NCBI GenBank assembly: GCA_030068145.1
Contig: JAPJBO010000004.1
Location: 62,001-126,000 of the forward strand
DNA: 64,000 bases
Direction: 5' to 3'
From: Diplonema papillatum
Taxonomy: Eukaryota > Euglenozoa > Diplonemea > Diplonemida > Diplonemidae
Shown here: piece by piece, positions 1,959-64,000 of the stretch
Numbering within the stretch: the stretch's first letter is position 1
Layout of the letters: every line of letters begins with the position of its first letter
The notes under the pieces: model-generated
The model's input: the letters and a program-made list of their open reading frames with translations, nothing else
Database searches by the model: none
Told to the model about the DNA's origin: nothing
Position numbers and translations under genes: made by a program

Positions 1959-2061
1959 AATTTCGCAGAAAACGAACGGAAACACACCAAAATGCTTATG
2001 AGGCCTTGAACAGGTTTGTATGCCCTAAAAAATAATGCAGGTAGATACTTAAAAGAAGAGA
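1959..2061. repeat. 103-bp direct repeat, LINE 3' side (target-site duplication)
   Basis: Bases 1959-2061 match 8505-8607 exactly over 103 bp. Left of the block the bases differ (T versus A) and right of it they differ (G versus C). The two blocks bracket the two-ORF LINE, so the simplest reading is a target-site duplication made on insertion. That is much longer than the 5-20 bp usual for LINEs. Confidence 0.85.
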
Positions 2062-2140
2062 GAGAGAGAGAGAGACGAGTTAGAGTGCAGGGACCATCTC
2101 TCCGAGGAGTATCCGGTCGCCCCACTACTATCCCGTACTA

Positions 2141-5100: not shown

Positions 5101-6520
5101 AGACGGTAAACGCGAGGCCTCTTCCGATTTTCGCTGACGGCGGCTCGGGTGGCAGAGCACACTTCCCATCCGTGCGCAGCAACACGAAACTTCGAAAGGA
5201 GCGTATTTTCGTCCACTGTCCCTCAAGCTGGAAGGGCAAAGGGCCAGGGGAGACGATTGTGCTTTCCCATTTGGCTCTGGCGGCTGCGTACTCCCGTATG
5301 CGCCCAAGGAGACACCTGGCTCTCTTCAAAGAAGCTGTATCGGCTCCCGCACCTTCAGGGGACGGCCTCGCCGATACTCGCTGAGAGTTCAATTCCCGAC
5401 GTACGCCACGGCCACAGTACCCGGTTAGGTTGCCTTCGATTCCGGATTTGAGGATGAGGTACTCTTCCGCAGCTCGCGAAGTCCGTTGCCAGAGGAAGTT
5501 CACCCGGGGGCTACCTTCGAGCCCGGGGGGGCAAGGGTCCCCGAGGCGGTACTTCTCAGAGACGTTCCGGAGGGCATTCGGGTCGTCCAGGCCGCTCAGC
5601 CCGGTGCTTGGAATTGCCCGGGGGTACCGGAGTACCGGGTTCAGTTGTTGGAATACTGCAAGATTAAAGGTGGCTCGGACCGCCTTGTGCGTAGGGAGGC
5701 CGGCTTCGAAAGTCTCCACGCGACCGAGAGCGGCAGAAGCGACTTCGTTGGTGAGAAGAAGGTCGATGCGTGACGGCTGACCGTGGTAACATGTAAACTC
5801 TGCAGGACTTCCCAGGGCTTCAGCTTGCAGCTCGGCAGAGTCCGACCAGCCGTTGCGCAAGGCGAATCGGAGCGCCGGGGAACCGAGGGGGGTCGTGTTG
5901 AAATCGCCGGCGGCGACAAGGGGCACAGCACCCAAGCGCTGGCGCAATCCCCACAGGGATCCCTCGATCAACCTTTCCCGCTCGGGTTTTTCGGAAATGC
6001 CACAGTGACCGTACAATGACACCACGTGTACGGCTCCTTTACCTACACCTGTCGCGACACGTACATGCAAGAAGCGGGCCGATTCGTAGGCACGTTGCTC
6101 GGCTGCGTCAAAAGGCTCGACGATACATGCAGGCAAGCCTTTCTTGACGAAAATCGCGACTCCTGCACTACCTCCTGTAACCTGGGATGGGACGCTGTTG
6201 CCGCACTTCCGCCCAACACAGCAGCTGCCGAAGAAGGGTTGCCATACATCAAGGGCGCCGGCTTGTTTCAGGGCCATCCGGATACTTCTCTGCCCGGCAC
6301 TCGTCAACTTCGTTTCTTGAACACAGATGATGTCCGCCGCTATGCAGATGAGGAGGTACAGGTTCTTCATCAAGGACGTGACATTTATAGTCACAATTCG
6401 AATTGGTGGAGGGCCAGGGTTGGGTTCGATACCTTGAGTCACGAGAAGCGCGTACGCTACGAGGGCCAGATAGAACTCTCTCGTCGGCTGGGGGGACAAA
6501 TCGTTGGCGTGGATCACCAT
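2141..6520 (-). CDS. LINE ORF2: 2A-like leader, APE endonuclease, reverse transcriptase, zinc knuckle
   Basis: The 1459-aa polyprotein should nick target DNA and reverse-transcribe the element RNA in the nucleus. Residues 15-28 are hydrophobic and lead into GIEPNPGP (30-37), a 2A-type motif. Residues 40-290 form an APE-type endonuclease, with N47, E69, Y170, GDFN (205-208), RID (251-253) and THK (277-279). Reverse transcriptase spans about 560-900, with LDFAKCFD (723-730), the NGILQGCPIS block (779-788) and catalytic FADD (814-817). A CX2CX9HX4C knuckle lies at 1133-1151, followed by about 300 residues resembling the tail of the neighbouring OTU-LINE family before its RNase H. The start ATG at 6518-6520 overlaps the ORF1 stop, which supports this start. 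No break is visible, so the element may be competent. Confidence 0.93.
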   Translation of the reverse strand: MVIHANDLSPQPTREFYLALVAYALLVTQGIEPNPGPPPIRIVTINVTSLMKNLYLLICIAADIICVQETKLTSAGQRSIRMALKQAGALDVWQPFFGSCCVGRKCGNSVPSQVTGGSAGVAIFVKKGLPACIVEPFDAAEQRAYESARFLHVRVATGVGKGAVHVVSLYGHCGISEKPERERLIEGSLWGLRQRLGAVPLVAAGDFNTTPLGSPALRFALRNGWSDSAELQAEALGSPAEFTCYHGQPSRIDLLLTNEVASAALGRVETFEAGLPTHKAVRATFNLAVFQQLNPVLRYPRAIPSTGLSGLDDPNALRNVSEKYRLGDPCPPGLEGSPRVNFLWQRTSRAAEEYLILKSGIEGNLTGYCGRGVRRELNSQRVSARPSPEGAGADTASLKRARCLLGRIREYAAARAKWESTIVSPGPLPFQLEGQWTKIRSFRSFVLLRTDGKCALPPEPPSAKIGRGLAFTVSGLCRDLAHSTLTSRYLKSARSQRELRDPLGKESFAWVKKDAPSGLSFVTGADGRLTANLAEVDALVRRSWDPVLRMYAEKREPEFAPFFQEYKDFITQHPCNLNPITAERLRQVAKKKSVQTSCGVDGWRMREIAVLPNAILESFVAVLNEVEETGFWPDGVLDAMVTLIPKGEGSDPLKLRPITVSSVVYRLWASVRLQDVMLWQELWIHGSQHGFRHGHSCDDVVMDIALSIEESLTNGTPLCGVALDFAKCFDRVPQALVLDLMEALGLHERVLAPLRHIYKHLRRRFRYPLGVGEMFTVTNGILQGCPISVVLINALLSVLSKALVSRARVSPKSFADDLYLLSQLARLLQEGIRTTEVFDSLTGFALNEDKSVSFSTSPEPPRLVIGRKIIRSSKIVKVLGVPLGTEGPVDNRRANATVEAAARLEAAPLMHRTKFRIMQTIAASAYYGAAYCTNTTGGFVNSSTLRTALSACVIPRSNRAKSPLAVLSLVAKAHLCDPACASGFSLFRTFVKQYGKERFRVRMDALLRVGADSSIKGPVGLMANLLREIRFLRATQHSFQSLSFDGTPVSLLGKEAPHLFREGLRLRAWRYLTTQRQGFDGIEGGVDVRAMNRLWLNRATDHKLSSAISRCIGGAVYSREWCRRKWGSGSGDCEFCDSGATGTLWHYYWQCPGPGCRWNELRSRFCIAEAMVRDMPQCLCIRGIPPYGTPPDLLEKIQRLIGTISIEMAQAQRSLAATRPWELASGASTKYDVHLATDSRKLLTTNIGTRFAATLVFWLRSLSWVSSNPLPTTGVELALDFEAFTRSKLPGRTFAEKGLQIGYLMRAINDLCCADSGVASFPGKWRQGVCSLRCFGAPAMPGCTHRPRFAAGRKTEWMLGKLETICARNSWNDAVPEYPHDVPYVQWELRFSVKMLAAAIGRAIAKRRRARETTCQHTPARRSRPPVRTPPAAPPSVQQSSLTGPRLAPRPRRNDLRPP
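6410..6433 (-). other. 2A-like ribosome-skipping motif in the ORF2 leader
   Basis: The codons read Gly-Ile-Glu-Pro-Asn-Pro-Gly-Pro at ORF2 residues 30-37, directly after a hydrophobic helix-forming stretch. The family consensus is D(V/I)ExNPGP; here Gly replaces the first Asp and the rest matches. Skipping would fall between G36 and P37, releasing a 36-residue leader and an endonuclease/RT protein that starts with proline. N-terminal 2A sequences are known in trypanosome L1Tc and sea-urchin LINEs. Activity here is inferred, not shown. Confidence 0.8.
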
Positions 6521-8316
6521 TGTGACTCCGGGGGGGGGACGTCGGCGGTCGCCTGCGCGGGCGAGGGAGATGAAGTTGGCGGCGTGGCCCGCGACTTAGT
6601 CCAGCATGCGTGACAGATTGCAGCCTGGCAGGGGCCGTGCGCGCAAAGCCGCTTGGCTTGTCCGACCTGCATGCCTTTGGCGCAGACCACGCAGAGGAAA
6701 GCTTCGGCGTTCGAGTGTGCTTCCTGCCAGCTGGTGTGCCGGCAGTCGGTGACCATGTTGTCCTTGCCGTCCACCCGTGCTAGCTTTTCCTGGGACTCAG
6801 TTGTCTCATCCTCTGTGCGTCCCCTCTTTTGGCCCGGAGACGGCTCGGGCCGTTCGTTGAGGCTAGCGAAGAACTCGGGTGGGAGTTTGACCTTCTCCCG
6901 CTGACACTGCGTGGAGAATCCCTTCCGTTGCCTCGCGTCAGTGGAGCGGTCGTATTTCCTTATCGAAATAGACGCGCGATCGAGCCGGAAGAACACGGGT
7001 GCAGGTGGGCCCGTGTCGGCGATGACGATGCACACGGTCTTACCTTGTCGCTTGAAGGCCCCGGCTTGTTCGACCTTCCAGCCGGCAGCAGCGCAGGCGG
7101 CAAGGAGGTCGGTCGCGTGTTCCGAAGCGCACGCGGTGGTGACCACGTATTTGTCGCCACGCAGTTGGCGCTTCGACAGCTTTTTTCCGACCGCGGATTC
7201 GGTGGCGGCAACGTGTTCCGGGGTCGTCCGAATGCCGAAGACACCCGTCTTTGTGCCCGCGATTACCCCGAACGTATTCGGAGTCAGTGCCGCCAGCCGT
7301 CGCGCCTCTTCAAGGGTGCAGTCACTCACCCACACCGCCGGCATGGTGTCCGTCCCGTTGACGAAGGACAAGGCCTTCCAGAATGTTCCGGCTTTGCCGG
7401 AGCTCCGCAGCAGCTTCTGCACGTCAACGATCGGGACGCGCACGCTCACCTCACACACCCCCTGCCGGCGGTGCACCTTTGTGAACACTGCGCTCCAATC
7501 CATGCGCAGTCCTTCCGCTTCTGCGGCCTTCTTCGCCATAATCCGCACAGATTGTGCGGCCTTCATCGCGGTATCCCAGGTGGCCGCGTGGACGTAGGCG
7601 GCGCGCACCTGGAACAGGCAAACCTGTGTCGTCGGCTGGAGGGTGTCGACTGCTTTGCAATGCACCGTGGGCAGGGCCAGGTTTTGGAACCGCGACCATA
7701 CGTCCTGATGACCGCCGTCAGACAAGGTGACGAGGTGCCTCACCGAACCGTCCCACGGAACGCTGCAGACGACGGCAACCTTCGCTTCGGGGTAAACCGC
7801 GACGGTGTCGAGGGCCGCACCCCATGCGGATTCCGCATCTTCGACACTTGCAGCCACGAGTAGGCCGCCCTTTCCGCTCCTCAACTCGTCGGTAGACCCG
7901 ACCTTCGCCACTTGCCAGTCATGGAAGACCATACTGGCCTTCGGACGGGTGCGGCGCGTCCTCTCCGACCACGTGCTAGGCACCTGCGGTTGCTTCGTCG
8001 ATGTAGAGCGGCGCATCCTTTCCGCCCATGAATCTTCGGTGGAGGGGTCCGGTCGCTTCTCGGATACCGGTCGCTTATCGGACACCGAACGCTTCTCGGA
8101 TACCGGAGGTCGAGCCTCTTGTGCCCCGGAGCCATGCGTCGAAGGGGGCGCGGGTTTCTGGGCGCCAAGCGGTGCGGGCGACGATCCGGCCATCCCTGTC
8201 TCGACCAAGGACAGGATGACGTCTAAGATAGACAGCAGTTGCTGCCTCGTCTTTTTGTCATGGCACTTCCCAGCCAAGGCGGATGCCCTGGCGATCAGTG
8301 CGTCGACGTCATCCAT
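6514..8316 (-). CDS. LINE ORF1: putative nucleic-acid-binding protein
   Basis: The 600-aa protein precedes ORF2 in the intact LINE and by position should be the RNA-binding/chaperone component. Its N-terminus is helical. A low-complexity segment at about 75-110 repeats SEKRPVSDKR-like units and is rich in Ser, Lys and Pro. Near the C-terminus (about 525-575) His and Cys cluster as CRH, CVVC, CAHGPC and CHAC, which looks like a zinc-binding module of RING or PHD style; I cannot assign the exact class. The stop TGA lies within ATGGTGA, shared with the ORF2 start, pointing to termination-reinitiation. The gene is intact. Confidence 0.85.
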   Translation of the reverse strand: MDDVDALIARASALAGKCHDKKTRQQLLSILDVILSLVETGMAGSSPAPLGAQKPAPPSTHGSGAQEARPPVSEKRSVSDKRPVSEKRPDPSTEDSWAERMRRSTSTKQPQVPSTWSERTRRTRPKASMVFHDWQVAKVGSTDELRSGKGGLLVAASVEDAESAWGAALDTVAVYPEAKVAVVCSVPWDGSVRHLVTLSDGGHQDVWSRFQNLALPTVHCKAVDTLQPTTQVCLFQVRAAYVHAATWDTAMKAAQSVRIMAKKAAEAEGLRMDWSAVFTKVHRRQGVCEVSVRVPIVDVQKLLRSSGKAGTFWKALSFVNGTDTMPAVWVSDCTLEEARRLAALTPNTFGVIAGTKTGVFGIRTTPEHVAATESAVGKKLSKRQLRGDKYVVTTACASEHATDLLAACAAAGWKVEQAGAFKRQGKTVCIVIADTGPPAPVFFRLDRASISIRKYDRSTDARQRKGFSTQCQREKVKLPPEFFASLNERPEPSPGQKRGRTEDETTESQEKLARVDGKDNMVTDCRHTSWQEAHSNAEAFLCVVCAKGMQVGQAKRLCAHGPCQAAICHACWTKSRATPPTSSPSPAQATADVPPPESQW

Positions 8317-13562: not shown

Positions 13563-13868
13563 TTACTTCACCGCCGCAGGTTCCCCCCTGCCCTGGGAGG
13601 TCTGCTTGGCTGCCTTCGGTTTGCGTCTCCGTGTTGGTGTTGTTGCTTCGCTTTTGGACTCCTTCTTCGATTTGGGACGGTCCCAACGTCCTGATCTGCT
13701 CTTGGCGCCCGTCTTGCGCTCATTCTGCGCTGCTCGTCTCTCCTGCATGGCTTCGTGTTTCCATCGGGACTGCTTGCGTTCCCATCCCGACGGGTAATGC
13801 CTCTGGGGACGAAAGCTGCCTTTCAGCGTCGCAGCCTTGCGGAGTCCTGCTTGCGGTTCGGCTCGCAC
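13563..13868 (-). pseudogene. OTU-LINE ORF2 basic C-terminus, shifted frame (copy B)
   Basis: About 100 codons rich in Lys and Arg continue the polyprotein after RNase H but in a different frame from the main RT/RNase H ORF, which ends at 13823 after AGLNKRPQMSNQP. The equivalent region of copy A follows its RNase H in frame (PQAGLRKAATLNGSF). A deletion and frameshift near 13870-13900 therefore removed about 20 residues here. The tail is basic and may bind nucleic acid. Confidence 0.65.
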
Positions 13869-16800
13869 CTTGTCGCCGGCTGGTTCGACATCTGCGGCCT
13901 CTTATTGAGGCCGGCCATGTTTCCGCCTCCAAGAGATGTCAGGACGTTGACGTGCATCTCAAGTGCCGGATGCACTGGCTTCTGCACAATCTTTGCCAGG
14001 CGTCGCATCGCGCTCTTCATCGCGTATGACTTCGCGGTCACCGAGTCGCGATATTCCGCCGTCGCTCGTCTTTGAACCTCGTCCATCGCGCGGTTCGACA
14101 GAGCGTCGGCGTCTACGTTCTGCTCGCGTGGCACGTGCTCTAATTTCACGAAGACGCCCTTCTGCCGCAGCTCCGCTTCCTCCGCCTGCGCTCTCGCCTT
14201 GTGTGGGCGTAACGCTTCGGAGCAGCGCGCGTTCCCTGTCATTTGGGAAACGACAAGTTCGCTGTCCCCCCGTACTACCAGCTCTCCGCTCAGCCCCGGT
14301 TGGTCCTGCAGTCGGTGTAGTGCCTTGACTAGAGCCGTGTACTCTGCGATGTTGTTCGTCGCTCGCTCCTCGATCGGAGCGCAGATTTCCCACTGTTTCT
14401 TTCCCTCGAGGTAGTACACAGCTCCTGCACCCGATACGGCCCCTCGCGTCCCGTTGTTCCGCGAGCCGCCGTCGAAGAAGACTGCCGTCTGCGGCGATGG
14501 TAGTTCGTCCCTCGCCACCCACCGTTTCTCCTTCTCTCCCGGATTGCGTTTCTCTCGCCACCGAGTTTTGACAGGTGTCAGCGTCAGCCCGCTGAACAGC
14601 TCGAAGTCGATCGCAAGCTCAAAAAATGTCGTCGAGACATCGCCTCCTTGTTCCGCCCATCGCTTCGAAGAGCTCCACTTTGCCATCGCCAAGAGCATCT
14701 CGTGGGAGTCGGGCCAGGCCGTAGTGCTCGGTCGGATTCTCTGCACATCGATTGGGTACACGGCCGTCGGGGGCTTCGGGTTCCACCCCCACGGGTAGTC
14801 GTCGACACGAAATTCTTTTCGCCGGCAGTTCTTCTCAACCAATCCCTCCACCCGTTGTCGCTCAAGCATTATGCGCGCACACATAAGCTGGATCGGGCCT
14901 GCCATGTCTGCTTCCCCGTCTTGGTGTGTCTGCTTCGGCACGACGCCACAGAGAGCAAGACATTTTGGCATGTTCGGGCGGCTTGCGAGAAGGTGTGAAT
15001 ACTCGCTCCTCACTGCGGCCCATCTGGTGCATTCCCACCACATGTGCTGCTCGTCTTCGGGTACTCCTGCATTGCAGTACTTGCAGATTTCGTGTCCGAG
15101 CCTCTTCCCCGTCGAAACTGCGTTGGCGATGACTGCTCGCACCAGCCCTTGCTGGTACCCTGTCAGCCCACCTTCCGTCAGCAATCGTCGGGTTGCCGGT
15201 CCGTCTATGCCGTGTTCGATTCCCTCGAGCTGTCCTCGCGCGACCTTCGAGTACCTGTGTGTGCGGACGGCCTCCCTTACCGCATGTTGAAATTCGTCTT
15301 TCGCCACTGCCGCTCGTCTCCTTGCGCTCCCGTCCTCTGCGTCGTTGTCGCAAAAGAGGTTCCAGTTCCCTTGGTGCGTCGGGTCTCGTACAAGTCCAAG
15401 CTCTGTCCATGTCCATCCCACCTGTTCGACAGCCTCTTGGAACAGAGCTATCGGCCCCTTCTTTTTGACATGGAGCTCACCTCGTTCCTCTCTTTCTCTC
15501 CTCTCCGCCCGTATCTCCTCTGCTAACCGCCTAAGTCTCGGCTGTCTACTTAACTGCTGCCCGAGCGTCAGCAGCCGTCGATGCAAAATTACGGATGCTG
15601 GGTCCAACCGATGGCCTCGGCACAGCACATTCAGTACAACTGCGTCGCTTCGCCGTAGACCTCCGGACCAGACTCCCGCCATCGTCGCCCTCGTCAGCGC
15701 CTGGACATACTTCTTAGGCGGCTGCCATACCGCGGTTCCGTACAGCGCTTTGGTCGTCGCTGCAGCGGCGACGAAGCGTTCTCGCTCCTCCATCGGCACC
15801 GGTAGGTGGCGAGCTCGGCGGGCTATAGCTTGAGCCTTCTCGTGACGCCCCTTTACCCGCTTACTCGGCCTCGACGCCCCTTGCCCCACAGAAAGCATCG
15901 TTCCTAACACGTCGAACGTCTGTTGTCTTTCTATCGTCTTTCTTTGCACCTTCATCATCCTCTCTTGGGATACACAAGTTGTGTACCAGTAGGACTTCGC
16001 TGCCCCAACTCCCAAATCCGCAGCATCTGCGAACTCCGTGGTTACTCGGGCAGCCGCCTCGAGCTGTCCTTTGTCGTCTGTCATGGCCTGTGTGTCATCT
16101 AAGAAGGCCAACGCGCGCACTACTTCTTCTTCGGTGCCGAGTACCTCGACTGCTCTGACCCATACTGCGACGAGCGCATTCAATAGTAGAACACTCAGAG
16201 GGCACCCTTGCAAAATTCCGTTTGCGGCGCTGAATGCTTCGCCTACCCCGCCGGCAGTTTTGAAGTGCCTGCTGATGGACGCGTACACACCCCTTAGGGC
16301 CCTGAGGACTCCTTTGTCTATTCCCATGTACTCTACCAGTTTGAACATCACCTCGTGTGGGAGGCGATCAAAGCACTTCTCGTAGTCTACAGACAGCCCG
16401 TACAATGGCCGCCCGCACTCGATTGCGTGCTCGATGCGCAAGGCGACTTCGTACATGATGTCGTCCGCTCCTCTGTGATGTACTGCGCCGCGTATCCCGT
16501 CGGGTATCCACTGGTGTACCCATTCCCCCAACATCCTCAGCCGTGTGGCAGCCCAGAGCCTGTAGACTGCGCTCGTTACAGAGATTGGACGCAGACTCAT
16601 GGGTCCAGCGTCTTCCTCGTTCTTCGGTATGAGCGATATCAACGCCGTGAGGAGCGCCCGTGGCCAGGTTCCCGTCTCTTCTACTACTTTGAACAGGTCC
16701 GCGAATCGGTCCACCGCTTCGTCTGGCAGTGCCGCCAACTCGTGGACGCGCCAGCCTTCTGCCCCCGGGGCCGTTCCTTTGTTCAGTTTCGTTAAGGTCT

Positions 16801-16963
16801 TTAGGAGCTCCTCCTTCGTTAGCGGCGCCAGCACGATCGGTCCCGTTCGTTTGATGGATGCCTCGAACTGTTGTTTAAAATCTTCCCATCGCGGCGCTGG
16901 CTTTCGGAAGTGCCTCTGGAAAACTGCCCCCCACGCGTTAGGCCCGCGTAGGATTCTGTCCAT
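13823..16963 (-). pseudogene. OTU-LINE reverse transcriptase, zinc knuckle and RNase H (copy B)
   Basis: This 1046-codon open segment is the catalytic core for target-primed reverse transcription. RT motifs include SLRPISVTSAVYRLW (123-137), VDYEKCFDRLP (192-202), NGILQGCPLSVLLLNA (248-263) and FLDD (287-290), where Leu replaces the usual Ala of FADD. The CX2CX9HX4C knuckle is downstream. RNase H lies at about 800-935 with FFDGGS, NNIAEY, RGDS and NVDADALSN. The FELAIDFELFSG segment between knuckle and RNase H is homologous to VELALDFEAFTR in the intact LINE. The ATG at 16961-16963 is internal to the ancestral ORF2. The segment is open but cut off from its endonuclease. Confidence 0.9.
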
Positions 16964-17410
16964 TTCTTCTGGGTTCCATGTGACGTTCCCATCCGTCCTT
17001 AAGAAACCGCACCTGCTTTCTGTCTTCCTGCTTCAGCCATGCAAAAATCCATCCTGGCCGCGTCGTCACCGCAAGCTGCATGCGGTCACGCCATTCACGT
17101 ACGCGCGCGTCTCTCACTCACCCATCACGCGCATAAGGTCTGCCCCTACAGGCGGGCTCGCTCGCCCCCATACTTCCTCGTATGGCCCCTCTGGCATCAG
17201 ATGCGTTCCCACCCTTTTCGCTTTCTCCCATCGCCGCGTCCTCATTCGGTCCGTCTGCATGCTCGTCGGGCCGTTTCCTCCATCGTCGGCAATGGCCTGC
17301 AGCTGGCGAATAAGCCGCGAAGTCAAACGCTCCGTTACGCCCGCTGCCACCCCATAATGTCTGCCTTGGGGTGCCGAGATTGGTCGGCTTCGGACTTTTG
17401 CTTCGCTTGT
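16964..17410 (-). pseudogene. OTU-LINE linker between endonuclease and RT, shifted frame
   Basis: Codons in a third frame (about 17114-17350) read through a basic stretch with RTRRWEKAKRVG and MPEGPYEEVWG wording that looks like genuine protein linking the endonuclease at 17411 to RT at 16963. Frame changes occur on both sides. I assign it by position and composition only. Confidence 0.5.
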
Positions 17411-18157
17411 TCAGTCGGTATACTTCTTCTCTATTCTCTCCGATCGTTTCGCCAGATACTCCTCAGCGGGTCCCGACACCAGCCTCCACGCCTTCTCCAC
17501 CGTCTTCTCCTCGACTGCTTGCACAAACCCCGTTCTCGTCTTCGCTAGAGTCTCCTCGATGAGTGACCTCTCCCCTTCCTCGCTTAGAAATGGCATCCGT
17601 CTCGGGAATGCGGCCGGCCTTAGCACAGTTCTTTGTCGGTCGTGGAACCTGTCCACACTCATCCGGACAACGACTGCGTGATGTGTCGGTATCGCTTTGA
17701 TTTCAATCACCTCCACAGTTTCGACTGCTTGCAGGGCGGCCTCATTCGCTAGTATAAGGTCGATCCGTGTGCCCCCTTCTGCCTGCCAGCAAGTATTTTT
17801 CGGTTTCGTCCCGTTCCTCATCGCCACATGCTGAGCCACGTCGGTCCACTGTCCGATCGTTGTCGCGGCTCGCAAGGTCCGTGATGCTTCCACCGACGTG
17901 TTCAGGTCGCCCAGAATCAGCGTGGGAACGCTACCGAGGGCGGCGGCGGCCTCGAAGACCTTCTCGAACAGGTTCTCTCTTGATTCCTGCTTGCCGGAGT
18001 GCCCATATATCGTTTTCATGTGTAGCATGGTCTTCCCCCCTCCGATCGGCGTGGCCACGTGATGCCATCTCCCCGTATCCCATAGCGATCTTTCCGGTTC
18101 TTGGTCTTTTCCGGGAATCCAAACCCGCTCTTCTCCTGCCCGGGTATAAAACCCCAC
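17411..18157 (-). pseudogene. OTU-LINE APE-type endonuclease segment
   Basis: The segment carries the second half of an APE-like fold: KTIYGHSG (48-55), LILGDLNTS (80-88), GGTRIDLIL (128-136) and a TTHHAV-like block with His (IPTHHAVVV). These match the Y, D/N, D and H catalytic positions of LINE endonucleases. The first half (ITVATVNVTS and ADFVAMQELRLD) is in the overlapping OTU frame, so the domain is cut by a frameshift near 18155-18165, where the plus strand has a CCCCCC run. An indel in that run is the simplest cause. Confidence 0.85.
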
Positions 18158-19038
18158 CCCCCGGGCATCGTCTGCGTTCCTCCCCTCGCCGCCTTGGTCG
18201 TCGGTTGAGGCTTCGCCGCATAGAGCCGGCCCCCCAACTCTCTTTGGACAAGTTGGGAGTACACCTTCGTCGACGGCGCATCCAACCTCAATTCCTGCAT
18301 CGCGACGAAGTCGGCGTCAATCGTGGTGACGTCTAGGTAGTGCTTCCGGTAGGAAGTCACGTTTACCGTCGCGACGGTTATCCCCCGCGGTCGGGTTGTC
18401 GTTCGCTTTGGTCTTTGTGAGGGCAGTGCCTGTTGTGGCTGCCGTGGCTGCGGGCTCGACTCCTCTCGGTGCGGGTAAGGTTGTTGTTGTGGGGGCGGTG
18501 TCCGTCGGGGTGCGATTAGCAGCCTGGCGAGAGGCACTGTGTTGGTGTCTGCCCGTTCCAGCAACTGTAGACTCTGCAAGGGGAGCTGGAGCCGGTCGTA
18601 GTGTAATGGTTGGTAGGTTATCACTACTGTCCGGTCCGCCCCGTCCGACCTCCACCGCTTCACCGTTCCACGATGGGCGGCATTCACCACCCAGATGTCG
18701 CACTTCAGCACTTGTGCCGCTGCGTTCAGCGTCAGCTCGTCTCCGTACGTCCGGTCAGTTCCCATCCTCTGCAGGTACTGCGCCATCTCTTCTCCTCCCA
18801 AGTAGTCGTAGTATCTTGCGGTGTTCGCCTCGATGTTCCGGACCACTCGCTCCCTTAACGTCCCTGCGTCGATTCCGCCGTAGCTGTCCGCTATCGCCGA
18901 GAACTGGCAGTTCCCGTCTCCCGGAACCTGTATGTACCTTGCGCACATACTGCGCGCCGTTCGCTCTATCCACTCACAGTCGTTGTCGTTGTCATCGGTC
19001 CTTCCGGTTACATCTCCTCCGACCAAGCTAGCCTCGCT
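18016..19038 (-). pseudogene. OTU cysteine protease domain plus start of endonuclease (OTU-LINE ORF2)
   Basis: Residues about 30-146 form an ovarian-tumour (OTU) protease domain: VPGDGNCQFSAIADS with D37 and C40, a YGDELTLNAAAQVL helix, CDIWVVN strands, and LHYD with H142. All three catalytic positions are present. OTU enzymes are cysteine proteases that usually remove ubiquitin. A Pro/Gln/Arg linker follows, then the start of APE (ITVATVNVTS, VAMQELRL). There is no ATG at the N-terminus: the frame opens immediately after TGA at 19039-19041, and upstream of that stop the same frame continues into the PIP-like segment. OTU modules are known in Dualen/RandI LINEs. Confidence 0.88.
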
Positions 19039-41287: not shown

Positions 41288-44200
41288 TCAGAACTCCCAG
41301 CACTCCTCGACATCCGTCCATGGAAAGTTGTTTATCTGTGCGCTGCGGTTGAAGGCATGCATGCGCGTTGTCTGGAGGCCCGCATCGTACGTCCAAGATA
41401 GCAAAATAACTGATGAATGCGACGGGTCGGCTCCGTTGAACGTCTTTTTGAACGATGTTTCCCCGGCTTTGAACCCCCGGTTGCTCTGTGCACACGAGGT
41501 GTGGATTGCGTTAGGCGCCCAAGCCTTCTCGTAGAAGTGTACAGGCCAGGGGGCATACAAGTAAGGAGATAGTAACCTGGGAACCGCGTTGAGAACTGAC
41601 CCGTATGGGGGCCAGGTGTGGATGGGTGGGTTTCCCATCTGCCGCAGCTTCGCAACCTGTGGGTCGAACATCATGTCAAGGATCGGGGTCAGTGTACTGC
41701 AACCCATAAGGCAGGAAAAGTCGACCAGCCCAACTCCCAGAACCTCAGTGCACCAGTTCATCGAATATGCGGAGTGAACGGTTTCTCCCTCCGCCGCAGA
41801 GCAGGCACGCGCAGTCGCATGGAAGCTCTCGTATGGCATGATGTGATCAACACAATTCGACCAGTCGATTGACCACGGCTTCCAGCCTGCAATTGCACTG
41901 ACTACGGAATCATTCTCGAGTAAAACTTCACCGCAGAACAGAGAAACAGACAGCAATCCTGCCTTCAGCATGTCTCGGGTAAGGGTGAGAGCACGAAGGC
42001 GGATAGCCACGGCGAGGCCGAAGATGTCTGTTGGCGCTTTCCGGCGTTTGATGTCACGTTCGTACTCTGCAATCATCTGCTCGTCCGAAACTGTGCGCAG
42101 GAAATTATCATCCGACTCCGGCCCAGCCCCTTCCGGGTACCTGAACATGCACACACTTCCCGTCGCTGGTTTCTCCGGACTCTGACTGCGAGGCTTCAAG
42201 GCCTCATCCCTTCCTTCTGCAAAAGAAGCGAAAACATCCCCTGTGAAGGCGTAGTGGACGGCAGCCATGCGGTCCACCTTTCGTTCCAAGCCGAAGGCAT
42301 AAGTCAACCTCTGTGTGGCTGCCCGTTCTAAACGGGTCATCCACAGGCGGCGAGCTTCGGCTAGCGACGGCGGTTCGGCATCAATCCACAACCGGAGATA
42401 AATCATCACTGCTTTGTTGATGGGAAAAGCCTTCTTTTCATTTGCGGTCAGTTTTGTCTGGTCGCGGTACACCTTCAATGCGTGCTTCACGCCGAGCCGG
42501 AATGCAGTGAGCGTAGCAGCAGTCCACGTCGATGAGTACCACACCTGCAAAACGTGCGAGACTGTAACGTTTGTACTCGGAGTGTCCCCTGCAAGCTTTA
42601 GCATCTCCACAATAACTAGATACTTCGCGATCGAAAATTCGTTGAGATCGACTCCCTTGAAGTCAACGGCTCCCTGGCTTTCGGCTTCTTTCTTCAGTGT
42701 TTCGGTGCACAGAGCTGTCATGCAACCAAGGTCATTGAAGCCGACGGCAACGTGGGTATTCCCTGGTGTCAACCGGTGGTTGAGGACGGTTACGTTCACA
42801 AACGCCGCTCGACTCTGAGGGGATTTGGCGCTCTTGAAATAGTCAGCATTCTCCGGTAAGCTCTTGTAGTCGAGAACACCGATCGACCTCCACTCGCGTG
42901 GGACGTCCGATAGCTGCCGTAGCTTACTATGTAGGTACGTAACTGCCTCAGAAGCATGAATAAAACGGCCGTCGAGCTCGCTGAGACCTCCTACCTCGTA
43001 CTCTCTGTAGTCACCCTTTGCCAGTTCACCTTCCATGACCATGCAGGATATCCACGGTTCGCTGGAGCAGGATGAATAGGCCTCGTAAAGGCACTTGCTG
43101 GCCAACGTCGTGTCGACGCCTCCCGGAAATCCGCACGTCTTTGGAAACGAGATGTGGAGGGATTCGGGGAACCTTTGGACCAAGGGTAAAAAAGCCGGAG
43201 AAAGTATTTGAGTCACGACTTCCGGTTTGGAGCGGAGCTTCAGACTAAGCAGCTCGGACGCTTGCGGCTCACCCGACTCGTTCTTGTCGCCTCTGGCGCA
43301 TTCCAGCTGCTTGCCCTGTTCCTCCGTCGTCGTTGTTGATATCTGCGGTATCGTCTTGACCGGTTTTATCAACTCATTCAGCTCGTTCTGCAAGGCAGCA
43401 GCAATACTTTCCCTCGTCTCGGCCACGGGTTTCCCCACATTCATGCATGCTTCATCTTCGAAATAGGCGAGGGCTGCTTGAACTAGCTTCGTGCAACAAG
43501 CTTCCAGACCGAGTTTGCGCAGAGCGCGCGAGAAGCGAATCCACGATTTGCTGGTGTGGGGGTTCAACATCGTGGCCACGCAAGCATCAGAGGCAGCGCG
43601 CATGAGCAGCAGCTTTTCCACGGGCGACAACGCCTTGTTGCGGAAAGCGGTGCGCAGGTCTTCAGCGGACACGAAGTCGCCGAGAATTTGGCCCATGGGT
43701 GGGCCGTCTGGAACCGAACGCTCGGCTACGGCTCCACCGTGCGCTGTCTGAAGGAACGCAGCACTGCGGTTGTTCAGCACCACGCCGAGCTCAGCCAGCA
43801 CTTGGCCATGCCCAGATACTAGAGTGATCGCACGCAGAAAATGGCGCAGCGCTTCAGTATATTCTCCGCCGGCGAAAGCCTTCCGGCCTTCTTCCTTTTC
43901 GCTCACCCACGTCATGATTGTGTCTGTGCTATGGCCGGCGCGGAGCATTTGCATCAGGTCGTCGCCTCCAGGTTTCCACACCTCATCGCACGCCACCGCC
44001 CAGAGTAGCGTTTGTTCCTTCGTTGGTTGTCGCGCTGCCGTAGTAGCATTCTCGGAATGCGGCTTCGTCTCTTTGATGATGTCATTAAACGATGCTACTT
44101 CTGCCGACGACGCGCCGAGCACTGTCCGCCACTTGCGAGCTTGGTACTCAGCGATCCACAACGCAAGTGACCGTGTGCTAGGGTGTTTGGCTAACGCTTG

Positions 44201-45403
44201 CACGAGCCTATGATTGGCTTTCACGTTGTGAGGGTTCAACGTGCAGGAAACGGCAGCGTACCGGACAGCTTCGGGCAGTCTCTCGAGCTGCAAGCAGCAG
44301 ATCGCTGCATTCGAGTACAGTACTGCAAGCATGCGGACTGTGTTCTCGTTCAAAACAGCCTTGTCGCCAGTCTCCCCCAGGGAGGAGGCATCCGGAATGC
44401 CAGCAAACGACGGCGCAATTCCGCTGGCCGCGTTGAGCTCACTGAGGACCCCGCGGGTCATAAATGAAAACTCCTCAATGTCGATCGGCCGCTTCTTCGG
44501 CTCGAGAGCAAAGATCCCTCCAGGGCATCCAGCGCACACATCGTCGAAGTCGACGTAGATGCTTGTGGTGCCTCTATCTGGGTAGCTGATCAACAGCGCT
44601 CTGTTGTAGCAAAGTACGGCTTTTTGCAGGCTCCGCGGATCCGCGCTGAGTTGCTTGAAAAACGCGTTTCCGAGGCCTTTCCACGACAAAGAGTACTCCC
44701 TGGCGTCTCCAATGACAAGGTTCGATCGCATATTGCGAGGGAGGGGCTTGTTGGTTGCAAGGTGCCGTTTTGCATCGTCAGCCGCACGTGAGCACTCGGC
44801 GAAGTGGTGCTCATCCGGGTAGTTGATAACTTCTTTCGGGTCTTCAATTCGAATGACGAACTGCCCATCAGCACCTTGTTTAAAAAATGGCTCATGCACT
44901 GCAATCAGGCGGCCTTCGTGGAAGAGCGAGCTGCAGACTTCTTCCGCCCTCGGGACGTTGTAGACTGCCGTCGGCAAAACCTGGCCCTGGAGGTCTTCCA
45001 AGAGGAAGACACAACTGGACCCTGTGAAGAACGCGTCGGCTTCGACGATTCTGCCTGGTAGATACGCACCACGGTGGGTGCTCTGCAATGTGAGGTCGTG
45101 GCGAGTTAAAGGCCTCAAACTGGTCAATGCGCTCAGCTGAGCTGCGGACTCGGGCTTCGTGTTGAGTCCAAAGCTCATTGGGGTCTTGACGGTGCATCCC
45201 TTGTACGACTTTAGCTCGAAATGTCTCTTCGCATCTAGGAACTTCTTCACCGTCGCCGAGCGGTCCTTGTACAAATCAATGCCGCTGCGCTGCATCTGCA
45301 GGCCACCGATGAGATCACTCTCCTTCACATGGGACATAAGCTTGACCGGATCGAACCCATCAACGACAAGTCCTTCAGCCCATCCCTTGGATAGGTCTTT
45401 CAT
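41288..45403 (-). CDS. Large TPR protein of unknown function, single exon
   Basis: An uninterrupted 1371-codon frame from ATG 45401-45403 to TGA 41288-41290; the five codons upstream begin at GTG and are excluded. TPR-like helix pairs occur at about 250-275 (GNAFFKQLSADPRSLQKAV), 360-410 (YSNAAICCLQLERLPEAVRYA) and 500-640 (GRKAFAGGEYTEALRHFLRA, LNNRSAAFLQT). The C-terminal half holds a conserved-looking region with VAVGFNDLGCMTAL, SIAKYLVIVEMLKL, VLQVWYSSTW and near 1210 DWSNCVDHIMPYESFH. The SNxxDH block recalls the C-terminal domain of TPR/MYND proteins of algae and fungi, but no MYND finger is seen. Likely a cytosolic adaptor. The intronless structure is striking beside the multi-exon gene at 53-55 kb. 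Confidence 0.85.
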   Translation of the reverse strand: MKDLSKGWAEGLVVDGFDPVKLMSHVKESDLIGGLQMQRSGIDLYKDRSATVKKFLDAKRHFELKSYKGCTVKTPMSFGLNTKPESAAQLSALTSLRPLTRHDLTLQSTHRGAYLPGRIVEADAFFTGSSCVFLLEDLQGQVLPTAVYNVPRAEEVCSSLFHEGRLIAVHEPFFKQGADGQFVIRIEDPKEVINYPDEHHFAECSRAADDAKRHLATNKPLPRNMRSNLVIGDAREYSLSWKGLGNAFFKQLSADPRSLQKAVLCYNRALLISYPDRGTTSIYVDFDDVCAGCPGGIFALEPKKRPIDIEEFSFMTRGVLSELNAASGIAPSFAGIPDASSLGETGDKAVLNENTVRMLAVLYSNAAICCLQLERLPEAVRYAAVSCTLNPHNVKANHRLVQALAKHPSTRSLALWIAEYQARKWRTVLGASSAEVASFNDIIKETKPHSENATTAARQPTKEQTLLWAVACDEVWKPGGDDLMQMLRAGHSTDTIMTWVSEKEEGRKAFAGGEYTEALRHFLRAITLVSGHGQVLAELGVVLNNRSAAFLQTAHGGAVAERSVPDGPPMGQILGDFVSAEDLRTAFRNKALSPVEKLLLMRAASDACVATMLNPHTSKSWIRFSRALRKLGLEACCTKLVQAALAYFEDEACMNVGKPVAETRESIAAALQNELNELIKPVKTIPQISTTTTEEQGKQLECARGDKNESGEPQASELLSLKLRSKPEVVTQILSPAFLPLVQRFPESLHISFPKTCGFPGGVDTTLASKCLYEAYSSCSSEPWISCMVMEGELAKGDYREYEVGGLSELDGRFIHASEAVTYLHSKLRQLSDVPREWRSIGVLDYKSLPENADYFKSAKSPQSRAAFVNVTVLNHRLTPGNTHVAVGFNDLGCMTALCTETLKKEAESQGAVDFKGVDLNEFSIAKYLVIVEMLKLAGDTPSTNVTVSHVLQVWYSSTWTAATLTAFRLGVKHALKVYRDQTKLTANEKKAFPINKAVMIYLRLWIDAEPPSLAEARRLWMTRLERAATQRLTYAFGLERKVDRMAAVHYAFTGDVFASFAEGRDEALKPRSQSPEKPATGSVCMFRYPEGAGPESDDNFLRTVSDEQMIAEYERDIKRRKAPTDIFGLAVAIRLRALTLTRDMLKAGLLSVSLFCGEVLLENDSVVSAIAGWKPWSIDWSNCVDHIMPYESFHATARACSAAEGETVHSAYSMNWCTEVLGVGLVDFSCLMGCSTLTPILDMMFDPQVAKLRQMGNPPIHTWPPYGSVLNAVPRLLSPYLYAPWPVHFYEKAWAPNAIHTSCAQSNRGFKAGETSFKKTFNGADPSHSSVILLSWTYDAGLQTTRMHAFNRSAQINNFPWTDVEECWEF

Positions 45404-45418
45404 ATTCCCCCTCAGCAC

Positions 45419-46384
45419 CTTTCTTGTTGGGGATGGCAGTGGATTTCACTCACGTTTCAATTGTAACAGGCAAGGAATCAGGCATATGATGTACGGCTAC
45501 CGTCAGAACGGCTGCAGCGTTTTATTCCAACCACCTCTCTTGCGAAAGGAGCACTGCAAATACGATTCTTTCAGGTGGTTCACCTTAGCGTTCCCAGCAG
45601 TTGTTCCTCTCTAAGTTCGTCGCTGCCGCGGGCGTTTGAATACTGAAAAAAAACGGTGAAAGCGTAGGTGCATAACCGTTAGAACTGAATGCAGGCGAAC
45701 AGCGGCTATATGAGCACGAGGTTTTGAATAGCTTTCATTGAGTTGCTACGGGCCAGGGCTCTAAGGTTATTCGTCTCCTCGATGGCCACATTCTGTTTTC
45801 TAGACGTTTCTTAAAGATTGTTTCGATCACGGATTTTTGCCGCATAGACTTGCTCGTGTCTTCTCGGCCCAACAATCTTACTACCCGCAAACCCGGGTCC
45901 ACGAACACTTCCCAAAAAAGATACTTCCCTGAAATTGAACGCACGGGCGAGAAGCTGCAGACGGGGTACTTCGCTTTTTCGACCACTGAGTTTGCTCTCA
46001 CAAGGAGAGACGGTGAAAGCACTACTAGTCATATTCACCCACACCTAGCAAAAGCAAGAGACGCATCCCGCAGTTGTCTCGGTCTCCTTTTTGCTCACGT
46101 GTTCGATGGTACTGCAGAGGCACGTGGGCTACATGCTAAGTAGCTGTCGACTTGCTTGCCACAGGGCAGAGCAGAAGACGGGGGCGGATGGAGACGGATT
46201 GCATCTCATGCTCAAGCTTTACTTGCTGCCAAGTATTTGAGGTTCAGAAAGCCGAAATGTCTTTCTATATAGTGACACTGAACAGCGGTTGTTGCTACGT
46301 TGTCGTGACGAGAACCAGAGAAAAGTTCTGCTTCACGAAGTTTCTACTAGCTTGGCATCCTCAAGGCTTCACGAACTGGTGTGA
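45419..46384. other. Spacer between TPR and hotdog genes
   Basis: About 0.97 kb with no recognisable gene. It must hold the TPR gene's promoter and the hotdog gene's 3' end, but I see no clear TATA box or poly(A) signal. Confidence 0.45.
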
Positions 46385-59544: not shown

Positions 59545-60814
59545 TCAAGCTGTCGTACGATCGAAACGCCGGTTTATTGGCGCGTCAAGGGGCAGCTCAC
59601 ATAATTTCATAAGGGTCTTCTTAACCGCGCTCAGTATGTCGTCAGCACTGCCAATCCAACTCGGCGTGCCCTCCACTACCTGCACCAGAACGTTGACCAG
59701 CAACACAGACCGCATTGGGAAGTGGTCGTTACATTTGAGACCGTTCCAGACTTTAAGGTAGATTACGGCTTTCTCGATGAACTTGTACTTTCGTCTTTTT
59801 TCGGCGAACCAGTTCAGCTCATCCTGGGTCACCTCTGTGTTCAGCCCGCTGTTGCGCGAGCTGACAGAAACGTCAAAATCGTGGCCTTCTCGTACGAACT
59901 GGAGAAGAGTCGCATCCTTTCTCTCCAGTTCGGAGATCAAAACGCTTGGGAACTTCGCCGCTATGCCAGCGACAGCTGCCCTTCGGGTGTGTTCAGATAC
60001 AGTCACAACAAAGTCGTGGTCGGAGCCACGGACGGCTGTTTTCATCTTGTGCGATCCCGATCGGACCACTTTGAAGCCGCTGTACGGTCGAGCTGCTTCG
60101 TTCAAGAGCTGTTTCACGGCCGTCACTATAGTGCCAGACGTCTCGGTGTCGCGGAAACGGTGAAATCCAACCTCCTTTTCGACGTCTGCCGAGAGGTAGT
60201 GCCTCAGACTCAACAGGTGCAGCGCTAGCCGGTCCTGGTGCAGTGTTTCCGCCAGACCTGCGCAATCCCGCAAAGGGCCGGGTATCGGGGTTGGTTTGTG
60301 AACTGGACCTTCAAGAGCCAGCGCCTGCTGGAACGACTTCGCGCCTGACGTTATGAGCTTGTTCGCGTGGAGCTCAGTCGCGTGCTTGTCTACCATATGG
60401 TGCAACGCTCCTTTACTGGTTGTGAACTCCTTGTTGCCGCAGCCTACGGGGCACTTTCCTGGTTTTTTAATTGCAGTTGACGATGATAGCGCCATCTCAG
60501 AACAGCCAAGACGACTGGAGAAGGCATGGAGGTCTTTGAAGTGTTGCTGCAGACCAAAAAGCGTGCTCAGGGACTTCGCGCACATCTTGCACTTGTATTT
60601 GCCTAACGTCGATAATGCACACTCATGGTTTCTCACGAGATGACATTTGATGTCTTCGTTGGCTCTGCGCAAATGCCACTGCACAAGTTCGCATGCTCTC
60701 TGTGGCGTTCGCCCATATTTTGTGGAAGTCCTGACAGCTTCCTTTTTTTGACTTCCCCATGGTGTTTTCTTCTGGAGGCTCGCAAGTTTCTTTAGGGTCG
60801 GATACAGAACCTGC
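59545..60814 (-). CDS. C2H2 zinc fingers joined to an OAS/CD-NTase-like nucleotidyltransferase
   Basis: The frame of about 423 codons begins after CTTGCAG at about 60815, a likely splice acceptor, with no ATG near its start, so an upstream exon is probable. Zinc fingers: CKMC..H92-FKDL-H97 (CX2CX12HX4H) and CPVGC..H-MVDK-H145; a third, looser pair lies near C42/C58/H64. The nucleotidyltransferase has VVRSGSHKMKTAVRGSDHDF with G254-S255 and D266/D268, and HDFDVSV with D315, giving three metal-binding Asp. A helix with YLKVWNGL (353-360) and FPMRSVLLVNVLVQVV (366-381) matches the LxKxWN...S..LE.L pattern of OAS/cGAS/CD-NTase enzymes. Such enzymes make oligoadenylates or cyclic nucleotides upon nucleic-acid sensing; the product here is unknown. 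TRF4-type polymerases are the alternative. Confidence 0.75.
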
Positions 60815-60816
60815 AA

Positions 60817-61254
60817 GATTTTAGAGTTAAAGTTCGCTTGAGATTCCGGGGTTTTAGGGTCACCGTGTGACCGTTCTTGAATGGGTTCTCTTAGAGCAAG
60901 AAAGGGCCATATGGTTACGGGTTGTATATTAGGTGCACGCTTTCGTTATGGGTTATGGCTAGCCATGTCCGGGACTGTTTGTGACCGACAGCAAGTACAT
61001 TCCTTCGTGGAGTGTAGTCATGGGCCCCCCACGTTCTACAAGTTGAGGGGTTGCCTTGTAGCCCGTACCGGTCTGTTGTCCGCGTTTATATGTATTTTCT
61101 CGTAGTAGTGCTTGAGTTTCGTGGCACTTGCGGCACTTCACGTGGTGCGGGTTGTTTCCGCCTCAAAATAAGGTTTTTCTTGGGTATATTTGCAGGGTAA
61201 AACTGTTCGTTGCTCGCCACAGTTAAGGCACTCTGGGCACACTGGTTAGTGAGG
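60817..61254. other. Spacer upstream of the nucleotidyltransferase exon
   Basis: It should contain the intron and possibly the first exon of the nucleotidyltransferase gene, but I cannot place them. A short dispersed repeat lies at 61025-61076. Confidence 0.4.
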
Positions 61255-62256
61255 TTATTTGTCTGATGGAGTCGTCGTTGCTGTGCGTCGTATACGGTGC
61301 TTCTTTTTGCACCAGGGCTTATGGTGGCGTAGACTTTTGAAGAGTGGTTTCCCCACGGTTCGTCCGTCGCTGTTGCAGTAGGGACATCTCTCTCGTTTCT
61401 GGGTGGTGCTTCGCAGCGTTGTTTCTGCTTGTGCCTTAGTTCTAGGTGGTTTTTTCTTGCAGTAACGTAGGTGCGTCCGTAATCCTTGTTTTCCCTTCAA
61501 TTTGAGGCCGGTGGTTGTTGTGCGTGTGTGGCAGTGGGGACATCGTAAGTCGTCTTCACTGTTGGTCTCTGTTTCCGCGGTGGAGGTCTGTGACGTGCCT
61601 GGTGTTCTGGGTGTTCGTGTGGGGTGTGTGCTGTCGTGTCGTTGTGTGGGTGTGTCGGTAGATGTCTCGTCTCCGCGCATGGCCCTAAGTATGCTTTGAG
61701 TCGAGTCCGGCTCTTGTGCTGTGGTTCTGGGCGTGGCAGGCTTTGGGGGCTCATACTGGTTGTGGTATGATGCTTCAATGGGTGGCGGGACATCCGTCTG
61801 TGGGTTGTCTTTGAGCTGGTAGACGCAGAGGTCAACTTCGTTGTCGGTGTAGTTTTGCGTCGAAGTGGAGTGCGTCTGTAGTCCGTCGAAGCGAGCCATC
61901 GTTGGTTAGCGTCGATGCCGTTGAGGGCGTGGATGACGTAGTGCCCTGGCCGGAGTGTACTGCTACGGCTCTGAGAATGAGTGGTGTGTTTTGTCCTGGT
62001 AGCGTATAGCGGTACGTACGGTTCGTCGCTTCGTGTCTACGGGCTCTTTGAAGCTGTATCAACGGCATTGAATTCATGCGGTGAAATGTTGTTGTTGTGA
62101 GGGTGGTGTCGGTGATTTTGCAGACTTCGCATCTGTAGTCGGTGGCGGGGCCAGGTTTGATGTGATTGTTCAAGCACCGTTGAATCGAGTTGTCGATTGA
62201 AGGTAGAAAGGTTACCGTATGCGGGTTTAATATGAAACGTGTTTAGTACGAAACGG

Positions 62257-62637: not shown

Positions 62638-62912
62638 TTAGAGATAAGCTCCGATGAAGAGAACCGTGAAGAATGGACCCGGGGACCAAGAAGTATGTGC
62701 GTGGTTCGCCGGTCTTTACGAGATGCAGGGCACCGGACATGGAAACCACCAGGTTTGTGACGGGAAGGACGGGAATCGATCCCCTGGGTGCCGTTTTTTT
62801 CGCTGTCCACGGAGCAGACCTTTTTCGACGACTTTTTGCTCGCGATCAGCTCCGATGAAGAGAATCGCGAAAATTAGACCTGGGGCTCAGAAAGTACGTG
62901 CGTGGTATGTCG
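62638..62912. repeat. Diverged direct repeat, about 200 bp apart, inside the USP locus
   Basis: GCTCCGATGAAGAGAA, then GGGG and AGAAGTATGTGCGTGGT at 62648-62704 correspond to GCTCCGATGAAGAGAA and AGAAAGTACGTGCGTGGT at 62848-62907. On the minus strand both read RTYFL..S....SLHRS. The copies are about 80 percent identical by eye. Confidence 0.65.
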
Positions 62913-63352
62913 TGGACTTCGGGGGGGTTGGTTTTGTTGTGGTTGCAGTTTTCAGATGTAGTTGTCGTTGTCGTTGTATATCGTAGGCCGATGAAAGCGT
63001 CCAGGCGATGTTGTTGACAAGCTTGGTGTGCGAGGTTTTCGTCAAGAAGTGCTGTAGTGATGGCTCTCGGCACTTCGCTGAGGTCGCATTGCTGCCCGTT
63101 GCTGAAAGGTCCGTCGATGTTCGCGAAAACGTGCAGCAGTGTTGCATGCGTCCGTTTTCCTGTCCCCCAAGCGTGTACGGCTGCCGCGCATTCGCCTTTC
63201 GTGTAGTCGTGGTATGTGACGACTTGTTGTGCCATGTCTGTGGCGGCGATCAGGTTGAGGGCAGCTTGCAGGAAACAGGAATTTGCGGTGCTGTATCTCG
63301 TGAGATTAGACATGGTCCGTGCAGCGGCTTTGGGAGAACACAGGTACTGCAA

Positions 63353-64000
63353 GGCAGTGGTCGTTTGATTCTTTCATTTTCCTCTTTCCTTTTCCGGGCT
63401 AGCTGACAGTCTCACGGCAGGAAGCAGCCACGTGGGGGACGTGGGGGGTTCGAACAACGTGCTCAAAGTAGTTCACTCGCAACAAAGAACAAACATCACG
63501 AAAAACCTACCTTCTGGTATCAGGTAGGGAAATACAACCAGCAATTGGATCACAAAATCCGAACCAACGAATGCAACATCCACGAATAAGCATCCATGAA
63601 TAAGCGACGACGAATATACTCAGGTCGTTGTCGGCTTGCTGTGTCCAGGCATTCAAGCCAGAGAGAGCGATGTGACAAGCATACAAGCATAAGATTGATT
63701 TGGCAGTGTCACTCCCACCTGCTTGGATTGGGCAATTGGGCAGTCTTTCCCACCAAAATATAAATAGCTGTGATTGTCGGGTATCACGCCGGGATTCTCG
63801 CCATTTCTAAGATTGTACTCAAAGACCTTACTTGCTTGGGCTAGTCGAAGGAAGCTGCAGGCCGAGATTGTGATATTGTTCGAGCTAACCAGCGGCCTAG
63901 CGACGCCTGGAAATGGGCTTCCGCGAAAGTGCGTTCTTGGTCGTTCCCACGAGGAGCTGGAGAACGCCCTCCGGTTCGCGTAGCAACCTCACTCGCGGGG
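63353..64000. other. Right-end spacer
   Basis: No gene is recognised. The word ACGAATAAGC and relatives recur at 63575-63620. A short plus-strand frame near the end (63774-63983) has no recognisable domain. Confidence 0.45.

Follow-up and report, generated by a model that had tools for sequence, protein, structure and literature searches.

A C2H2-finger nucleotidyltransferase of Diplonema papillatum, probably catalytically active, that leans by sequence towards the CD-NTases

C2H2-type fingers generally bind nucleic acids, and chains that join fingers to a nucleotidyltransferase (NTase) fold are already known. One is ZFR, in which zinc fingers occur together with a DZF domain; DZF domains are not known to be catalytic. 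Others are TUT1 and TUT4/7, in which C2H2 fingers and an NTase share one chain (PMC6232586). The eukaryotic CD-NTases OAS, cGLR and eSMODS, as treated in PMC10732462, are Pol-beta NTases with a GS motif, a DxD motif, a third Asp and then a K-x-W helix. OAS1_C, Mab21 and SMODS were taken from that source as their family-defining models, and its main text does not use the term 'zinc'. Here we analysed a gene in a 64,000-nt stretch of the Diplonema papillatum genome (the window), which lies in contig C4 of the 271-Mb assembly and in which positions 59,545-60,814 were noted first. Size, interrupted genes, transposable elements and a ribosomal protein mark this assembly as eukaryotic; the scores of uL3 against PDB ribosomes lay near each other, and neither the chlorophyll-binding family nor the control of that search gave a match. 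The gene encodes what we call the finger-NTase protein, with two C2H2 finger patterns in front of an NTase. This NTase falls in a small family of this genome that by sequence stands apart from the genome's TUT, TRF4 and PAP proteins and leans towards the CD-NTases (OAS, cGAS and bacterial cyclases).

The gene is read on the minus strand, and its core residues are numbered from the codon at 60816. The NTase domain covers core residues 225-423 (59548..60144). The three catalytic motifs named in the original prediction were all present: the GS motif (G254, S255; 60052..60057), the metal-binding DxD (D266, D268; 60013..60021) and the third Asp (D315; 59872..59874). The KVWNGL helix that had been proposed to follow was also found, after the palm, in its K355-V-W357 part (59746..59754), while the accompanying Ser, in FPMRS, occupies a column that is not conserved among the relatives. 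The GS and KVW motifs are invariant in the finger-NTase protein and in two other proteins of the genome, L011 and L012. Pfam NTP_transf_2 (PF01909) scored 23.2 bits on the full open reading frame (ORF) and 26.1 bits on the domain alone, over its cut-off of 21. The AlphaFold2 model, made from a four-row alignment, was a palm with a block-mean predicted local distance difference test (pLDDT) value of 71-92 at residues 231-350. By sequence, the protein is a member of the Pol-beta nucleotidyltransferase superfamily, and its subfamily was left unclassified.

The C2H2 fingers had likewise been predicted to precede the NTase, and two patterns were found there in the same frame. C-x2-4-C-x12-H-x3-5-H is present at core residues 76-97 (C76-x2-C79-x12-H92-x4-H97; 60526..60591) and 122-145 (C122-x3-C126-x12/13-H139/H140-x5/4-H145; 60382..60453), and when residues 1-214 were shuffled 20,000 times, 0.14% of the trials had at least two such patterns. 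The Pfam C2H2 models stayed below their curated cut-offs (zf-C2H2, also for finger 1, 19.3 bits versus 25.2; zf-C2H2_4 17.8 versus 27), and the finger region was poorly modelled by AlphaFold2, with pLDDT below 50. Fingers and NTase as separate genes, a split that the original prediction had considered, was rejected, since both lie in a single uninterrupted frame, barring an unseen intron. The gene thus encodes a real and probably active NTase, with fingers in the same exon.

One full-length place of the gene was found in the genome. A decayed fragment at C4:698004 shares 66% identity over about 60 residues and contains a stop; at the DNA level it is a 176-bp stretch of 83% identity. The next matches were L011 (intact 690-residue frame, 49-2118, plus strand; E 0.003) and L012 (intact 675-residue frame, 1384-3408, minus strand; E 0.018), which are 43% identical to each other and have intact NTase catalytic residues. 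Their NTase is C-terminal and follows a GHKL-like ATPase region, in which the HATPase models were below cut-off; we refer to them as GHKL-NTases. The NTase domain of the finger-NTase protein is 22% identical to L011 and 24% to L012. A further relative, L023 on contig C652, was found via L012. It consists of tandem NTase-like frames at 973-2304 and 2308-3018 (plus strand), and the first, which has no GS, DxD or third Asp, is probably a pseudo-enzyme that was duplicated in place.

The strongest evidence for the kinship is a leave-one-out profile test. With the profile of L011, L012 and L023, the finger-NTase protein scored 35.4 bits (E 1.1e-10), and none of the 20 TUT/PAP-like control loci exceeded 8.7. 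The motif spacing is common to the finger-NTase protein, L011 and L012 (D1-D3 48-49, D3-K 40-41) and differs from that of the controls (n=8), in which D3-K is 31-36 in seven and 62 in one, and D1-D3 is 50-83. In the tree, which is shallow and has mostly weak deeper nodes, the protein grouped with L011, L012 and L023 at 0.934 support. Eleven controls had been tried for tree and spacing, and L039, L044 and L047 were left out after the motif filter missed them. The GHKL-NTases are therefore the closest NTase relatives of the finger-NTase protein, but carry a GHKL ATPase-like N-terminus where it has C2H2 fingers.

The control loci were chosen with MTPAP-like_central (PF22600): 30 places were scored, 24 were over the cut-off and 20 loci were obtained, of which 10 were covered by PADLOC, 9 by Pfam and 6 by NCBIfam. 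With these 24 of 30 places, some of them near-identical copies, the whole genome holds a large TUT/PAP-like NTase set. Two members, L040 (214-1974, minus strand) and L043 (1369-2235, plus strand), combine MTPAP-like_central over cut-off with weak cyclase matches and are paired in the tree at 0.989.

With a TUT profile (L031, L037, L039, L044), each of the 20 control loci outscored every one of the 200 decoys. The finger-NTase protein scored -1.2 bits with it, at rank 37 among the decoys. Because the TUT profile misses the protein while the GHKL-NTase profile finds it, it is no ordinary tailing enzyme. MTPAP-like_central reached 17.7 bits in the finger-NTase protein, below the cut-off of 27, and was also below it in L012 (23.0 bits) and L011; it was over the cut-off in nine of nine controls, which had been selected with that very model. 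No PAP_assoc (PF03828) or PAP_central row was returned for L011, L012, L023 or the finger-NTase protein, whose C-terminus may be incomplete. Among the nine controls, PAP_assoc was over cut-off in three (L031, L039, L044) and under it in L038, and either PAP_assoc or PAP_central was over cut-off in four.

All three PADLOC matches of the finger-NTase domain were Cyclase models, which touched both halves of the domain (best E 6.5e-4), and the best PADLOC match of L012 and L011 was Cyclase PDLC00803 (E 1.5e-7 and 5.8e-7). Eight of the ten controls matched no PADLOC Cyclase model. The top five rows of a PDB profile search were OAS2, OAS1 (three rows) and CdnD, at non-significant E values of 0.14-0.35. 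The CBASS cyclase equivalogs of NCBIfam were under cut-off (CBASS_cyclase_a 13.3 bits versus 200, cGAS 11.7 versus 150).

The eukaryotic family models did not recognise the protein. At E<=10, the Pfam scans gave no row for Mab21 (PF03281, cGLR/cGAS) and none for OAS1_C (PF10421), the C-terminus being possibly incomplete. OAS1_C gave no match in the genome at E<=0.1, and its positive control gave none either. SMODS (PF18144, eSMODS) gave no row for the protein, and a genome-wide search at E<=1, whose control matched in 3 of 14, returned no match. The finger-NTase protein is like OAS, cGLR and eSMODS proteins (PMC10732462) in its order of motifs, its weak matches to bacterial cyclase profiles and some similarity of fold, but unlike them in having no OAS1_C, Mab21 or SMODS row and in carrying C2H2 fingers in front. 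The original observation largely held, and the OAS/cGAS/CD-NTase interpretation put forward with it was supported in part. Since neither the eukaryotic CD-NTase definitions nor the tested TUT/PAP ones fit the protein, it was filed only as a Pol-beta NTase.

Searches beyond the genome returned no relatives within their reach. Scans of contigs seek short peptides and so reach close relatives only; in viral contigs, four scans gave 1, 33, 0 and 113 pattern matches with none confirmed, and in a prokaryote genome collection, 55 and 596 pattern matches were obtained with none confirmed. Relatives of L011 and L012 were likewise unconfirmed in these short-peptide scans of prokaryote and viral contigs. 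Phages gave no match at E<=1, plasmids gave 6 and 1 records at E<=10 (all at E 1 or worse), viral structures, searched with the relative's model, gave none at E<=0.001, and phmmer against PDB sequences gave no meaningful match. A C2H2-CD-NTase protein was not found in the literature by title and abstract start, a search that left most subscription papers outside its scope.

We put a CD-NTase-like signalling NTase as the first choice, ahead of RNA tailing, at slightly less than an even chance. Several results weigh against it. Controls L040 (E 0.0029) and L043 (0.0016) beat the full-length finger-NTase protein (0.0044) on PADLOC Cyclase models, and they scored 16.1 and 15.6 bits with NCBIfam CBASS_cyclase_a, versus 13.3 bits. 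The cyclase leaning therefore rests more on the relatives than on the finger-NTase protein itself, and because of these two controls we set the signalling reading no higher. In Foldseek, the finger-NTase model matched the CCA-adding enzyme, TRF4, TUT7 and Cid1 first, with OAS3 and CdnE further down, at ranks 21 and 31. The model of a relative was better (predicted template modelling score 0.67); with it Cid1 came first in Foldseek, CdnE at rank 11 and CdnD at rank 39, and VIA-align gave Tailor 14.8, ILF3 14.4, Cid1 14.1, CdnC 13.8 and OAS2 13.1. VIA-align of the finger-NTase model ended in ties (cGLR 10.3, ILF3 10.1, TUT4 9.9, CdnC 9.8, OAS1 9.8). Because the models were built from four sequences and the structure listings are rich in TUT entries, we read the fold evidence as undecided between the two sides, leaning to TUT/Cid1. 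The original prediction had named structure prediction and fold comparison as its check, and the outcome was ties for the finger-NTase model and TUT slightly ahead for the relative. A divergent RNA-tailing enzyme of the TUT or non-canonical poly(A) polymerase kind would explain why TUT, Cid1 and TRF4 entries come first or level in these comparisons. The RNA substrate would be bound through the enzyme's C2H2 fingers, like that of TUT1 and TUT4/7 (PMC6232586). These enzymes share with the finger-NTase protein the C2H2-plus-NTase layout and, like TRF4-type enzymes, a similar palm fold. MTPAP-like_central is the second Pfam match of both the finger-NTase protein and L012, and matches to cyclase models occur in some of the TUT/PAP-like controls as well. 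We nevertheless consider such an enzyme less likely than signalling, since its central model stays under the cut-off, no PAP_assoc or PAP_central row is seen, the motif spacing is another one, and the profile that finds every control locus misses this protein.

Two further explanations leave both signalling and tailing aside. The protein could be a scaffold or RNA-binding protein like ZFR and NF90, or could transfer nucleotides to a protein or small molecule. ZFR and NF90-NF45 resemble it in having zinc fingers with an NTase fold, and ILF3 (NF90) was level with the best fold matches; the finger-NTase protein differs from them in retaining every catalytic residue, and we hold this role to be improbable. 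The least probable account is that the gene was interrupted by a transposable element and is decaying, or that the frame itself comes from a transposon. It is favoured by a multi-copy element whose constant end, at 60819, is seven bases from the AG of an acceptor-like site, by the fragment with a stop elsewhere on contig C4, by the in-frame ATG codons, none of which lies ahead of finger 1, and by a C2H2 region weakly like the fingers of a multi-copy ORF (E 0.22, and 4e-4 when one pair was compared). Against decay, the gene has only one full-length place, and its 423 codons are still open beside an element copy about 9% diverged from its relatives. In neutral simulations with substitutions only, the frame stayed open in 1.4% of cases at 9% per site, 12% at 4.5% and 21% at 3%. 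This result suggests selection on the finger-NTase frame if the 9% divergence of the neighbouring element reflects its age.

The gene structure was analysed in the window. The coding exon, terminal or internal, occupies 59545..60810 and lies open on the minus strand between a 3' splice-acceptor-like cttgcag (60811..60817, AG at 60812-60811), directly upstream, and the in-frame stop at 59545. Counted from 60816 the frame has 423 codons, and first-order Markov simulations of the region, 1000 in all, produced none longer than 311. Its G+C content at the three codon positions is 0.56/0.42/0.61, and the three positions rank alike in L011 and L012, which are intact. The stop-to-stop ORF extends to 60945 and so takes in 60819-60945, where the multi-copy element ends. 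The first 42 or so residues of this ORF match about 90 other genomic places; residues 1-42 belong to the repeat and were rejected as part of the gene. The upper limit of 60814 given originally was right within a few bases. The first in-frame ATG codons are at residues 78 and 108, with others further on, and the ATG at 60760 falls in another frame, so a protein with an intact finger 1 must begin in an upstream exon or at some other start. The acceptor-like sequence suggests such an exon, and inspection by eye of window positions 63319-64000 gave no convincing one on the minus strand. Towards the C-terminus, the alignments with the relatives weaken near a candidate 5' splice donor, atGTGAGCT (GT at 59599..59600, minus strand), and the C-terminal tail may therefore continue in another exon.

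The transposable element next to the gene occupies 60819..62214 and, after a 691-bp interruption, 62906..63318. For the first part, 39 other places were scored, 90-93% identical and some of them partial. The element departs from its relatives beyond 63318, is interrupted between 62214 and 62906, and has frames that weakly match zinc-ribbon models. Elsewhere in the genome, a same-scoring match to a 422-661-residue frame (L013-L020) made up 19 of the 30 genome-search rows listed. This frame is probably a mobile element by its sequence, and at L013 it ends in the C2H2 fingers whose weak similarity was given above. The window also contains, on the minus strand, a non-LTR (long terminal repeat) retrotransposon frame with reverse transcriptase and endonuclease at 2141-6595; a non-LTR retrotransposon at 13823-19038, with a reverse transcriptase-like frame (by eye only) and an OTU protease domain in the nearby frame 18016-19038; and one 1385-residue open frame at 41288-45445, for which Pfam returned weak TPR matches and nothing else at E<=0.01.

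The locus is unusual in that its NTase lies outside the named groups and that finger and GHKL versions stand in one genome. With fingers of a type that binds nucleic acids and an intact catalytic triad, the protein is most naturally read as an NTase that responds to nucleic acids or modifies them. In the signalling reading, the C2H2 fingers would bind DNA or RNA, and this binding would order or localise the NTase, in which D266, D268 and D315 would hold the metals for joining nucleoside triphosphates; the oligonucleotide so made, linear or cyclic, would be the signal. A larger picture is more speculative, and we give it rather low weight: a further eukaryotic CD-NTase-like signalling lineage distinct from OAS, cGLR and eSMODS. 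Its sensor part would have been exchanged between members (C2H2 fingers here, a GHKL ATPase in L011 and L012), and synthesis of the oligonucleotide second messenger would be nucleic-acid-triggered or ATPase-gated. If the protein is instead a tailing enzyme, it would be of modest interest, as a divergent addition to a well-known group. Should the signalling reading hold, a CD-NTase-like family would be added to those of eukaryotes, one whose nucleic-acid-binding region is built in and which the OAS1_C, Mab21 and SMODS models do not detect here. It would then be possible to test directly whether NTase immunity acquired new sensors through domain swapping outside animals.
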